A stretch of 54,921 nucleotides of DNA from Mogibacterium sp. (GTDB lineage: Bacteria > Bacillota > Clostridia > Peptostreptococcales > Anaerovoracaceae). The stretch lies in the NCBI GenBank assembly GCA_017432075.1, contig JAFRJV010000058.1:1-54921 (forward strand), in the 5' to 3' direction. The notes under the pieces are model-generated. The model worked only from the letters and a program-made list of their open reading frames with translations. It ran no database searches and had not been told where the DNA came from. This document shows, in pieces, positions 24,421 through 54,921 of the stretch (positions are counted from its first letter, which is position 1; each line of letters starts with the position of its first letter). The translations under genes and the position numbers were made by a program.

Positions 24421-24497
24421 GGCGCAGAACAGGCCGGGATGCGGAAGACACAACGCAGGTTTGGATTAAAAAACAAAAAAGTTTGAAAAGAATATAA

Positions 24498-24539
24498 CAA
24501 TATATTGACACCATATAACGCTGTGACTACAATATATAG
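24498..24539 (+). promoter_or_regulatory. nrdD promoter with paired NrdR-type boxes
   Basis: TTGACA (24505-24510), a 17-bp spacer and TACAAT (24528-24533) form a strong promoter. Two near-palindromes of the NrdR-box type, CAATATATTG (24498-24507) and CAATATATAG (24530-24539), overlap the -35 and -10. Their centres are 32 bp apart, the three-helical-turn spacing known for NrdR box pairs. NrdR represses ribonucleotide reductase genes when dATP is high. The rest of the 24370-24689 gap holds the arginase promoter and the nrdD leader. Confidence 0.8.
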
Positions 24540-24564
24540 TGTTCGGAAAGGAACGCTATTTTTT
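24538..24564 (+). promoter_or_regulatory. Terminator-like hairpin at the start of the nrdD leader
   Basis: AGTGTTC (24538-24544) pairs with GAACGCT (24551-24557), followed by ATTTTTT. Given the promoter above, it forms at the extreme 5' end of the transcript, in a leader of about 150 nt. It could be an attenuator or a 5' stabiliser, or terminate transcripts from upstream. Confidence 0.4.
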
Positions 24565-24689: not shown

Positions 24690-26966
24690 ATGAAAAGCAT
24701 TATCAAAAGAGACGGCAAGGAGATGCCGTTCGACGAGTCTAAGATCTTCAATGCCATCTATGCAGCCAACAAGGCAGTAGACGGCGAGAAGATGACGAGC
24801 ATCGACTTCACTTACCTCACTAAGAAAGTCGTAGAACAGCTCGACGGCGAGACATGCACTGTAGAACAGGTGCAAGATATCGTCGAGGCTATGCTCATCA
24901 AGTATGACTGGGAAAAGACCGCCAAAGCTTACATCCTTTACCGCGCTGAGCATGCAAAGATCCGTGAGGCTGAATCGGATCTGATGAACATCTACAACGA
25001 GCTCACTTATTCGTACTCGAAGGATGCTGACATCAAGAGAGAGAATGCCAATATCGACGGCGACACATCGATGGGCACCATGCTCAAGTATGGTTCGGAA
25101 GGTGCTAAGTACTTTGTAGACAACTACGTACTTCCGAAAGACATCGCTAAGGCTCATATCAACGGTGACATCCACATCCACGACAAGGATTTCTACATGC
25201 TCACCGAGACATGCTGCCAGATCGACCTGATCAAGCTCTTCAAGGACGGATTCTGCACAGGTCACGGCTACCTCAGAGAGCCGCAGTCGATCATGAGCTA
25301 TGCTTCACTGGCATGCATCGCGATCCAGGCTAACCAGAACGAGATGCACGGCGGCCAGTCGGTACCTAACTTCGACTATGCTATGGCACCGGGTGTCGCA
25401 AGAACATATATAAAGGAGTTCTTCTCGGCACTGACTGAGATCATTGCCGCAAAGCTCGACGCGGCTTATCCGGACGCAAAGGCCATTGCAGACAAGATCA
25501 AGGCTGAGGCACCTGCTCCGACACTTGCAACCAACGGTTCGTACGGCGAAGTGCTGGGCGAGTGGTTCGATAAGGCGGGCTGGGCCGGCGGACTCACAAG
25601 AGAGCAGCTGGTAAGATGCAGCGCACAGGCAGCAGAGGCAGCATGGGCAAGGACAGACAAGATGACCTACCAGGCAATGGAGGCTCTTATCCACAACCTC
25701 AACACCATGAACTCCAGAGCCGGCGCACAGGTTCCGTTCAGCTCGGTCAACTTCGGTACAGACACTACTCCTGAAGGCCGCATGGTCATCAAGAATTTCC
25801 TGCTCGCTACGGAGGCAGGACTCGGAAACGGTGAAACACCGATCTTCCCTGTATCTATCTTCAAGGTAAAAGAGGGCATCAACTACAACGAGGGAGATCC
25901 TAACTATGATCTCTTCAAGCTGGCGATCAGATGCAGCGCAAAGAGGCTGTTCCCTAACTTCAGCTTCCTCGACGCTCCTTTCAACAAGAAGTTCTACAGA
26001 CAGGGCGACTATAACACGGAAGTTGCTTACATGGGATGCCGTACGAGAGTAATGGCCAACAACTACGACCCTACAAAGGCTGTAGTATGCGGCAGAGGAA
26101 ACCTCTCGTTCACATCGATCAACCTGCCTAGACTTGCCATCGAGTCCAACAGAGACTTCGACGTATTCTACAAGAAGCTCGATGCCATGATGGATCTCGT
26201 TGCGAGACAGCTGCTCCACAGGTTCAAGATCCAGTGCAGCAAGAAAGGCCGCAACTATCCGTTCCTGATGGGACAGGGCATCTGGATCGACTCCGACAAC
26301 ATCGGACCTGATGACAGCGTTGCTGAAATACTCAAGCACGGCACGCTCTCGATCGGATTCATCGGACTTGCCGAGACCATGAAGGCTCTGACAGGCAAGC
26401 ATCACGGCGAAGATGAAAGAGCCAGAGAGCAGGCATTTGAGATCATCAAGCACATGAGAGCGGTCTGCGACAGGAAGAGCGCAGAGACAGGCCTCAATTT
26501 CACGCTTCTCGCTACACCTGCTGAGGGACTTTCCGGAAGATTCGTAAAGATCGACAGGGAAAAGTACGGCAAGCTGCCTGGGATCACAGACAGAGACTAC
26601 TACACCAACTCGTTCCATGTTCCGGTATATTATCCGATCGGAGCATTCGAGAAGATCGCCATCGAGGCACCTTATCATGACCTCACAAATGCCGGCCACA
26701 TCAGCTATGTTGAGCTTGACGGTGATACAGCGAAGAATCCTGAAGCTTTCGAATCTGTAATCAGATTCATGAAGGAAGCCGGCGTCGGATACGGTTCGGT
26801 CAACCATCCTGTAGACAGAGACCCGGTCTGCGGATACACGGGAGTCATCGATGACGTCTGCCCGAGATGCGGAAGACGCGAAGGCGAGCCTGTTACGATC
26901 GAGAGACTGAATGAGCTTCGCATGAGGTTCCCGAGTGTACCGGTACCATGCGACTGCAACCGCTAA
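24690..26966 (+). CDS. nrdD: Anaerobic ribonucleotide reductase NrdD lacking its glycyl-radical segment
   Basis: The 758-residue protein has an N-terminal ATP-cone (about 3-95) for dATP/ATP activity control and the class III reductase core, with NTMNSRAGAQVPFSS, RLFPNFSFLDAPFN and MGCRTRV (Cys450, the likely thiyl-radical cysteine). Near the C-terminus the zinc region is DPVCGYTG and CPRCGRREGE (Cys714, 724, 727). Asp711 stands where many family members have the first zinc cysteine, and CDC at 754-756 may supply ligands. The chain then stops: the R-x-x-GY glycyl-radical motif that ends other class III enzymes is missing and is found in the separate ORF 167 bp downstream. It reduces ribonucleoside triphosphates without oxygen. 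Confidence 0.95.
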   Translation: MKSIIKRDGKEMPFDESKIFNAIYAANKAVDGEKMTSIDFTYLTKKVVEQLDGETCTVEQVQDIVEAMLIKYDWEKTAKAYILYRAEHAKIREAESDLMNIYNELTYSYSKDADIKRENANIDGDTSMGTMLKYGSEGAKYFVDNYVLPKDIAKAHINGDIHIHDKDFYMLTETCCQIDLIKLFKDGFCTGHGYLREPQSIMSYASLACIAIQANQNEMHGGQSVPNFDYAMAPGVARTYIKEFFSALTEIIAAKLDAAYPDAKAIADKIKAEAPAPTLATNGSYGEVLGEWFDKAGWAGGLTREQLVRCSAQAAEAAWARTDKMTYQAMEALIHNLNTMNSRAGAQVPFSSVNFGTDTTPEGRMVIKNFLLATEAGLGNGETPIFPVSIFKVKEGINYNEGDPNYDLFKLAIRCSAKRLFPNFSFLDAPFNKKFYRQGDYNTEVAYMGCRTRVMANNYDPTKAVVCGRGNLSFTSINLPRLAIESNRDFDVFYKKLDAMMDLVARQLLHRFKIQCSKKGRNYPFLMGQGIWIDSDNIGPDDSVAEILKHGTLSIGFIGLAETMKALTGKHHGEDERAREQAFEIIKHMRAVCDRKSAETGLNFTLLATPAEGLSGRFVKIDREKYGKLPGITDRDYYTNSFHVPVYYPIGAFEKIAIEAPYHDLTNAGHISYVELDGDTAKNPEAFESVIRFMKEAGVGYGSVNHPVDRDPVCGYTGVIDDVCPRCGRREGEPVTIERLNELRMRFPSVPVPCDCNR

Positions 26967-26982
26967 TCAGACGGAAATACGA

Positions 26983-27015
26983 TTATCCACAGGGTTATCC
27001 ACAGACTTATCCACA
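26983..27015 (+). promoter_or_regulatory. Cluster of three DnaA boxes
   Basis: TTATCCACA occurs perfectly at 26983-26991, 26995-27003 and 27007-27015, all in the same orientation, with 3-bp gaps and an exact 12-bp period. This is the consensus DnaA box. The cluster lies between nrdD and the glycyl-radical ORF, about 50 bp upstream of that ORF's promoter. The last box also forms CCACA/TGTGG (27011-27026), a small inverted repeat. Confidence 0.85.
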
Positions 27016-27064
27016 AGATGATGTGGTATGCCATAAAATATACAACAATATACATTAATATTGC

Positions 27065-27093
27065 TTTACAAATCCCTATGCAGGGAATAAAAT
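27065..27093 (+). promoter_or_regulatory. Internal promoter before the glycyl-radical ORF
   Basis: TTTACA (27065-27070), a 17-bp spacer and TAAAAT (27088-27093). The spacer contains the inverted repeat TCCCT/AGGGA. Just upstream, CAATATACATTAATATTG (27046-27063) is an AT-rich dyad that faintly resembles an NrdR box. Confidence 0.6.
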
Positions 27094-27133
27094 GAGTGCG
27101 CACAAAAAGAAGAAATAATACGGAGGTGCCGGT

Positions 27134-27301
27134 ATGAATAATAAAGTCGTCAAGAATGTAAACGGTCAGGTCGGTGAAGGCGTTGGATTCGAGAGAATCA
27201 GAAGGATCACAGGATATCTCGTCGGAACACTCGACAGATTCAACAACGGCAAGAGAGCCGAGGTACAGGACAGAGTTAAGCACGGACTGTCCCACAACTA
27301 A
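27134..27301 (+). CDS. Stand-alone glycyl-radical subunit of the anaerobic ribonucleotide reductase
   Basis: The ORF has 55 codons. After a polar N-terminus of about 20 residues it reads RIRRITGYLVGTLDRFNN, then GKRAEVQDRVKHG. This is the C-terminal glycyl-radical segment that is normally fused to class III NrdD, with Gly27 (in RITGYL) as the radical site. The preceding nrdD lacks exactly this part. GGAGGT lies 6 bp before the ATG, a promoter precedes it and a hairpin follows, so it looks like an expressed gene and not a frameshift remnant. It probably docks into NrdD, and NrdG would place the radical on it. Whether this split form has been described I cannot tell. Confidence 0.88.
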   Translation: MNNKVVKNVNGQVGEGVGFERIRRITGYLVGTLDRFNNGKRAEVQDRVKHGLSHN

Positions 27302-27322
27302 TTGACCATCTGAATGCAAATG

Positions 27323-27358
27323 GCCGCCTGAACCGGAAAGCGGTGGGCGGCTATTTTT
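27323..27358 (+). terminator. Terminator or attenuator between the glycyl-radical ORF and nrdG
   Basis: GCCGCC (27323-27328) pairs with GGCGGC (27346-27351), with an inner CCG/CGG stem, followed by TATTTTT. nrdG starts only 20 bp later, so read-through must feed it or it has another promoter. This could lower nrdG relative to the radical subunit. Confidence 0.65.
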
Positions 27359-27378
27359 GTGAAAGAAGAGGTACTGCA

Positions 27379-42621: not shown

Positions 42622-42731
42622 TCCTTATTAAGAGCGGAGGAGGGAATGGGCCCGATGATCCCGCGGCAACCTCACAGGAAGTGAAGGTGCCAATTCCCAC
42701 GGGGCGAAGGCCATGCTCCGGCAGATGAGGA
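42622..42731 (+). ncRNA. SAM-I (S-box) riboswitch
   Basis: The leader carries the S-box signature in order: CTTATTAAGAGCGGAGGAGG, GGGCCCGATGATCCCGCGGC, AACC and GGTGCCAATTCC, closed by a P1 stem of CCTTAT (from 42623) with ATGAGG (to 42730). It binds S-adenosylmethionine and turns off expression through the terminator that follows. Confidence 0.92.
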
Positions 42732-54833: not shown

Positions 54834-54921
54834 GGAGGATTGACCGAGTGGCTAAGGAGCCTGATTGGAAATCAGGTAAGGCGTAACAGCCCCGTGGGTT
54901 CGAGTCCCATGTCCTCCGCCA
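54834..54921 (+). tRNA. tRNA-Ser (GGA anticodon)
   Basis: The acceptor stem GGAGGAT pairs with GTCCTCC (last pair G-U), the anticodon stem CCTGATT...AATCAGG presents GGA, a long variable arm typical of tRNA-Ser follows, and GGGTTCGAGTCCC forms the T arm. CCA is encoded at 54919-54921, the end of the window. Confidence 0.96.

Follow-up and report, generated by a model that had tools for sequence, protein, structure and literature searches.

A predicted two-part class III ribonucleotide reductase in Mogibacterium with its glycyl-radical loop on a separate small protein

INTRODUCTION

The class III ribonucleotide reductases known to us carry their glycyl radical on the catalytic chain, NrdD. A locus of Mogibacterium sp. 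(assembly GCA_017432075.1, contig JAFRJV010000058.1, positions 1 to 54,921; we call this whole 54,921-nucleotide stretch the window) raises the question of whether the radical has to be there. In the window, nrdD ends without the radical segment, and a separate open reading frame (ORF) downstream encodes that segment as a 55-residue protein. We consider it very likely that this is a working two-part class III reductase, in which the NrdD barrel is served by a 55-residue glycyl-radical loop in trans. At the level of sequence, the split, its conservation, a recurrent change of state, separate expression signals, and unlinked copies of the piece are all present.

RESULTS

The radical segment is encoded apart from nrdD

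The locus has the following parts.

24690..26966, + strand: nrdD, catalytic subunit of 758 residues with ATP-cone, barrel, finger-loop Cys450, and zinc-region cysteines, without the glycyl-radical segment
26871..26963, + strand: replacement C-terminal tail of NrdD, 31 residues, GRREGEPVTIERLNELRMRFPSVPVPCDCNR, which follows the zinc region and occupies the place of the radical segment
27134..27301, + strand: small glycyl-radical protein, 55 residues, FERIRRITGYLVGTLDRFNN, radical residue Gly27, matching PF13597
27379..27951, + strand: nrdG, radical S-adenosylmethionine (SAM) activase matching TIGR02491, start codon picked by eye

The initial annotation had claimed that NrdD lacks the RxxGY motif and ends about 30 residues past its zinc cysteines, and that a separate ORF at 27134-27301 carries the radical segment. 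Both claims held. NrdD matches the Pfam family NRDD (PF13597) over positions 1-531 of 562 (633 bits) and the ATP-cone family PF03477 (68.2 bits). The RxxGY motif was not found in its 758 residues, and the glycyl-radical motif is on another chain. The 55-residue ORF contains RITGY and matches PF13597 over positions 533-562 of 562, with 33.5 bits against a curated cut-off of 26.2. The zinc-region cysteines of NrdD are residues 714, 724, and 727, and the chain stops 31 residues past Cys727. A C-x-C closes this tail (26949-26957). The two residues proposed to carry the radical, Cys450 and Gly27, are where the annotation had placed them. Cys450 lies in the finger-loop motif MGCR, in a column that is invariant across 19 aligned NrdDs. 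NrdG scores 149.1 bits against TIGR02491 (cut-off, 126.1; scanned from 27343).

The spacer between nrdD and the small ORF is 167 nucleotides long and holds 2, 3, and 2 stops in its three frames (the first count includes the NrdD stop). This agrees with the claim that no frame restores a fusion.

The arrangement is conserved in the genus

We searched 60 genomes including the window's own, 36 of them from the genus. A complete copy of the window-type NrdD was found in 25 of the 36, always ending at residue 756-758 and always the sole NrdD match in its genome. Five others have partial copies (G001, G007, G012, G032, and G033), two have distant NrdDs only (G031 and G034), and in four there was no NrdD match (G002, G009, G010, and G019). 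All 25 complete loci, the window's included, have the small ORF downstream of NrdD, and in 24 of them it is preceded by GGAGG (the exception is L023). The NrdD tail has the same length, stays close to GRREGEPVTIERLNELRMRFPSVPVPCDC, and ends in C-x-C in 25/25.

Of 12 pairs compared, 11 gave the small ORF a ratio of nonsynonymous to synonymous substitution (dN/dS, NG86) of 0.03-0.17, and one was saturated. For the NrdD tail the ratio was 0.02-0.13 in 6 of 12 pairs, the other 6 being saturated. The small ORF and the new tail are under purifying selection. Because the arrangement is kept in 25/25 complete loci and the dN/dS of the small ORF is low, it is not a product of chance.

The same split recurs in other bacteria

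A DNA pattern for G[EK]GV.FERIRRITGY, run over genome contigs, gave at least 117 stretches. The counts out of 117 and 108, here and below, are counts among the matches listed. A tail-less NrdD adjoins the small ORF in 108 of the 117 and a fused NrdD in none; this is no prevalence, because the loci were chosen by the small protein's own motif. The other nine have no NrdD in the stretch, some being ended by a contig boundary. Tail-less NrdDs with small RITGY ORFs beside them, which the initial annotation had proposed to look for in Clostridia, are thus found. NrdG is also adjacent in 84 of the 108 loci. By record title, 88 of these loci are from Bacillota, 10 from Fibrobacterota, and 5 from Mycoplasmatota; three other phyla contribute one record each, and 2 are unassigned. 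The odd phyla may be mis-binned because most records are metagenome-assembled genomes. Some loci are from isolates, among them Bacterium 1XD42-1 (L080) and Massiliimalia timonensis (L125). Many bacteria of the gut and rumen share this split.

With an ATG in 107 of the 108, the small proteins have a median length of 55 residues and start 0-304 nucleotides past the NrdD stop (median, 25). An ATG with a strict Shine-Dalgarno (SD) sequence was found for 82 of 108 small ORFs, compared with 41 of 1804 internal ATGs. For the small ORFs, any ATG before the motif was accepted, which somewhat favors them. By a permissive rule, an SD precedes 106 of the 108 small ATGs and 12.1% of the 1804 internal ones. 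Tails related to that of the window occur on other split NrdDs. Among the 108 tails, 39 have no cysteine and 51 have two or more. By analogy with class I/II tails, these cysteines may have a redox role.

We also searched evenly drawn samples with a profile of 18 stand-alone pieces. Matches were found in 52 of 147 genomes of the class and 70 of 149 of the phylum, most of them in frames long enough for a fused NrdD.

The state of NrdD has changed repeatedly

In a tree of 153 NrdD bodies (94 split and 59 fused), there are at least 13 state changes, 8 of them forced by starred branches. A 58-row quick tree under a mixture model (34 split and 24 fused) has 8 changes, 5 of them forced. The approximately unbiased (AU) test rejects a single split clade (p=7.8e-5), without distinguishing fission from refusion. 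It also rejects a grouping of the window's genus with the rest of its family's NrdDs (p=1.7e-5). Therefore, the genus probably acquired the split operon by horizontal transfer.

One operon, in G398, has the order fused NrdD, stand-alone piece, and NrdG. It is a possible intermediate between the fused and split states, and it is the sister row of the window's clade in the 58-row tree, whereas the tree of 153 places it elsewhere.

Two other genes have irregular ends or frames. The NrdD of G205 (L320, 980-3262) has a frayed radical motif, FERVKRITGYPVGGMESLQ, followed by a stop, and a stand-alone piece lies elsewhere in that genome; perhaps this NrdD has been caught in decay. The NrdD of G353 (L307) is broken into several frames, by sequencing error or as a pseudogene.

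Stand-alone pieces occur unlinked and beside intact NrdD

We picked 23 genomes for a closer PF13597 search. Six were chosen for a stand-alone piece beside or without a complete NrdD; the others were picked for a truncated NrdD match, as genus-mates of such genomes, as members of the window's genus, or as fused comparisons. The radical segment is absent or frayed on NrdD in 14 of the 23, and a stand-alone piece is present in 14/14, which is not a frequency, since six of the 14 were chosen for a known stand-alone piece. Thirteen of these pieces score above the curated cut-off, and that of G505 scores below it (21.9 bits). In 9 of the 14 genomes, the piece is on a different contig from the tail-less or frayed NrdD, and these pieces are on long contigs. 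Five of the nine are genomes of genus g25, whose NrdDs stop soon after the zinc region. Because the pieces sit on other contigs, frameshift, readthrough, and misassembly are ruled out for the unlinked cases. In G485 and G589, the piece is immediately before NrdG and apart from the tail-less NrdD. A second NrdD is present in G589, G205, G255, and G418.

There is also a longer form, type B, of about 85-105 residues with an extra N-terminal domain. Among 70 genomes from the family of the window, 28 have it (E below 1e-34), and the same search also found a fused NrdD in 21 of these 28. The N-terminal domain matched nothing in Pfam or NCBIfam above cut-off.

Four more short stand-alone pieces are found on other contigs of the window's own genome (L033-L036), with C83 just under the family cut-off. 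Three of them are beside related conjugation-like genes and the fourth is beside an enoyl-CoA hydratase gene. The conjugation-like neighbors gave weak TrbC/TrbL matches below cut-off, and a further scan, with E up to 0.001, had no matches.

Viral contigs carry the piece, mostly alone

A pattern scan of viral contigs gave 70 stretches. The piece is present in 70/70, NrdD in 2 (L199 and L248), and NrdG in 3 (L199, L218, and L241). In the best 80 of 332 stretches of a viral profile scan, the stand-alone piece is present in 80/80, with NrdD and NrdG nearby in 3. We examined the whole records of 24 of the 70 pattern stretches and 28 of the best 80. Among these 52 records, which are possible fragments and are not dereplicated, 50 have the piece alone, two have a tail-less NrdD with the piece, and none has a fused NrdD. 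L218 and L241 have NrdG beside the piece and no NrdD anywhere in the record.

Homologues of lysin and holin queries lie within 2.5 kb of the piece in 13 of the 70 pattern stretches. The order in L238 is piece, holin, endolysin, and terminase, and the piece is in a lysis cassette in L236, L203, and L342 as well. Some phage neighbors of the piece had no match in PHROGs. Phage and cellular copies (L340-L419) have the type B N-terminal domain in common, with 61% identity over 82 residues between L342 and a cellular copy. When pieces were scanned against Pfam, NCBIfam, and PHROGs, the only strong matches were to the C-terminal end of NrdD families, with scattered weak others. One cellular type B piece had a weak PHROGs match (E 0.021) to a family of 75 positions whose function is not known, and this match was not reproduced by four viral pieces or the window piece.

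Two records have unusual neighborhoods. In L241 (9332-11154), NrdG and the radical piece are directly followed by an ORF that resembles a reverse transcriptase (YADD motif, by eye). Eggerthella phage EL753P1 (L070, 3741-7175) has an NrdD without the radical segment and a downstream piece matched in two parts; this piece may be frameshifted.

The small gene has expression signals of its own

Signals around the small ORF and upstream of nrdD are as follows.

24495..24542: NrdR-type box pair upstream of nrdD, TAACAATATATTGACA, 16-bp spacer, CTACAATATATAGTGT, summed score 1.70
26983..27015, + strand: three exact DnaA-type boxes TTATCCACA with a 12-nucleotide period, in the 167-nucleotide spacer
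27011..27058: NrdR-like box pair before the small ORF, CCACAAGATGATGTGG, 16-bp spacer, CAACAATATACATTAA, summed score 1.39
27065..27093, + strand: promoter of the small gene, TTTACA-N17-TAAAAT, whose -35/-10 pattern is also visible in the genus spacer alignment
27122..27127, + strand: ribosome-binding site GGAGGT from the SD scan, with GGAGG in 24/25 genus loci
27316..27360, + strand: hairpin between the small ORF and nrdG, the 3' side running into TATTTTTG, -24.7 kcal/mol, z -3.64

The GGAGGT and the promoter that had been described for the small ORF are both present. The downstream hairpin folds well, at the energy given; a simple terminator scan made no call there on the + strand.

We scored box pairs against a consensus that we take to be that of NrdR. 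The background, taken from 300 randomly placed 170-bp pieces within the window, had a median score of 1.02, a 95% level of 1.22, and a maximum of 1.70. The nrdD pair equals this maximum, and the small-ORF pair exceeds the 95% level only. Box pairs of NrdR commonly have a spacing of 15-16 bp (PMC12051234; this and the papers cited below are drawn on in excerpt). Better-matching NrdR-like boxes are present in several of the relatives' spacers and absent from some, and when 23 spacers were tested singly, the best box in some was no better than in shuffles (e.g., L017 and L024). The NrdR-like boxes and the conserved promoter suggest that the gene of the radical subunit is controlled independently, as a reductase gene. 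The repeated boxes at 26983..27015 are presumably DnaA boxes. The window has 5 of this TTATCCACA type, compared with 0.36 expected. Two or three such sites, exact or with one mismatch, are present in 12 of the 25 genus loci and absent from 13.

Elsewhere, the window has a 5S rRNA (17-133), a SAM riboswitch (42622-42731), and a tRNA (54834-54918).

Is the split enzyme the working reductase?

PF02867, the class I/II barrel family, was not found in 14 of 15 genus genomes examined, the window's own included. A second nrdD, which the initial annotation had named as a possible objection, was not found in the own genome, which is 83% complete, or in the other 24 with a complete copy. In G005, a 99%-complete relative, the PF13597 search gave a single tail-less NrdD together with two radical pieces and a fragment that was not significant (E 0.036). 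Because 14/15 genus genomes lack a class I/II reductase, gene content indicates that the split NrdD is probably the working, sole reductase.

Some points weigh against a working two-part enzyme. G218, in the genus, has one PF02867 second reductase. The own genome is only 83% complete, and G031 and G034 have distant NrdDs only. The place of G398 in the larger tree, and the choice of loci behind the 108 of 117 and 14 of 14, belong here too. Furthermore, in pyruvate formate-lyase (PFL), whose spare part is YfiD, a chain cut to residue 695 had YfiD binding below detection and 32-fold less activation (PMC8683613). This weak binding indicates that a missing tail can hurt docking unless it is compensated.

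The first two of these points would fit a decayed gene: NrdD would have lost its tail, the small ORF would be a relic, and the cell would use another reductase or import deoxynucleosides. We consider this very unlikely, as the split and purifying selection extend over 25 loci with the promoter and SD kept, 14/15 genomes have no class I/II reductase, and the change of state is recurrent.

The small protein might instead be a spare part or regulator only, with the NrdD radical formed on a tail cysteine or directly by NrdG. Pieces do coexist with intact NrdD in 21 of the 28 type B-positive family genomes, and the tail C-x-C is present in 25/25 genus loci. However, 14/14 of the chosen genomes whose NrdD is tail-less or frayed keep a stand-alone piece, and 39 of the 108 tails have no cysteine at all, which makes this idea highly improbable.

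Rejoining of the frames into a normal NrdD, by programmed frameshift, stop readthrough, ribosome bypass, or protein trans-splicing, is extremely improbable. In its favor are 20 complete loci in which the frames are in phase with a single stop between them. Against it are the stops in all frames of the window spacer, spacers that range over 0-304 nucleotides, the SD before 106 of the 108 small ATGs, and the pieces on other contigs in 9 genomes. Furthermore, the short tail and small ORF are unlike intein halves (judged by eye, with no intein search).

An assembly or annotation artefact of metagenome bins, to which most of these genomes belong, is scarcely conceivable, given the isolates L125 and L080, the 25 genus loci, and the unlinked pieces on long contigs; the assembly error that the initial annotation had allowed for is untenable on the same grounds. 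Overall, assembly error, frameshift, readthrough, trans-splicing, and pseudogene were rejected on conservation, spacer stops, unlinked pieces, and isolates.

DISCUSSION

How might a reductase divided in this way work? Complex formation, radical transfer, exchange, and oxygen repair are steps that we infer. NrdD would provide the barrel, the allosteric ATP-cone, the zinc region, and the thiyl residue Cys450, and the 55-residue protein would provide the glycyl-radical loop in trans. NrdG would load the radical onto Gly27, probably while the small protein is docked on NrdD, as YfiD would lead one to expect. Gly27 and Cys450 would then exchange the radical in both directions, as happens in fused NrdD. 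The small protein probably docks on the new NrdD tail, with the loop entering the barrel from outside, and this tail may make up for the weak docking seen with truncated PFL. A loop cut by oxygen could be replaced at the cost of 55 residues of synthesis. A separate loop is mechanically plausible because the radical domain is mobile even in the fused NrdD of Prevotella copri, where dATP inhibition acts via that mobility (PMC11226230). After activation with YfiD, truncated PFL matches the wild type in activity (PMC8683613).

With ordinary class III systems such as the P. copri NrdD (PDB 8p23), the window system shares the barrel, ATP-cone, finger-loop cysteine, and zinc region, along with the NrdG activase and a RITGYL-type radical motif. 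It differs in that the radical loop is encoded by a gene of its own and NrdD has a new tail of about 30 residues instead.

The closest parallels to the piece itself are the PFL spare parts, YfiD/GrcA of E. coli and Y06I of phage T4, which are also small autonomous glycyl-radical proteins (PMC8683613). Spare parts of the YfiD type are activated by the parent enzyme's activase, and in Y06I there is a phage-borne version (PMC8683613). The comparison with YfiD had been made in the initial annotation, and it is strengthened here because pieces coexist with intact NrdD and stand alone in viral records. However, the window piece is an NrdD-type domain: PF13597 alone was above cut-off, and no PFL-type family was reported at E up to 1. 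YfiD/GrcA also duplicates a domain that its parent carries, whereas the window NrdD lacks it, although duplication is met in the 21 type B family genomes. Since the parent enzyme in the window has no radical tail of its own, the piece would serve as an obligate subunit rather than as a repair part alone.

Reductases divided over several genes have been described. As in the window, the chain of the split class II NrdJa/NrdJb is divided over two genes (PMC9669993). The NrdA of Aeromonas phage Aeh1 is a natural fission with function kept, but it is a class I enzyme, the break is a homing-endonuclease insertion, and it concerns one phage (PMC3653736). Six split phage nrdD genes, including that of phiAS4 in three pieces, likewise have several coding pieces, but their breaks are introns, inteins, or unexplained, and no autonomous radical subunit is described in the excerpted text (PMC3653736). 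In the excerpts of open-access PMC literature consulted, which are no proof of absence, we recognised no report of a class III reductase whose radical is on a protein of its own.

With a detachable radical subunit, the anaerobic enzyme would resemble class I in its layout. The oxygen-sensitive part would be cheap to replace, and radical exchange between the two proteins would be directly testable. Whether glycyl-radical enzymes beyond PFL have spare parts is a question left open in print (PMC8683613), and the split NrdD bears on it. The pieces carried by phages would represent an auxiliary gene, so far unrecognised, for the supply of DNA precursors. We tentatively propose a wider picture, to which we give slightly less than an even chance: that many anaerobes have a two-component class III reductase with an interchangeable, independently regulated radical subunit, and that this subunit travels alone on phages, and probably on conjugative elements, which use it to take over or revive the host NrdD. 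If this is true, a lone piece could reload an oxygen-cut enzyme or supply a loop that escapes dATP feedback.

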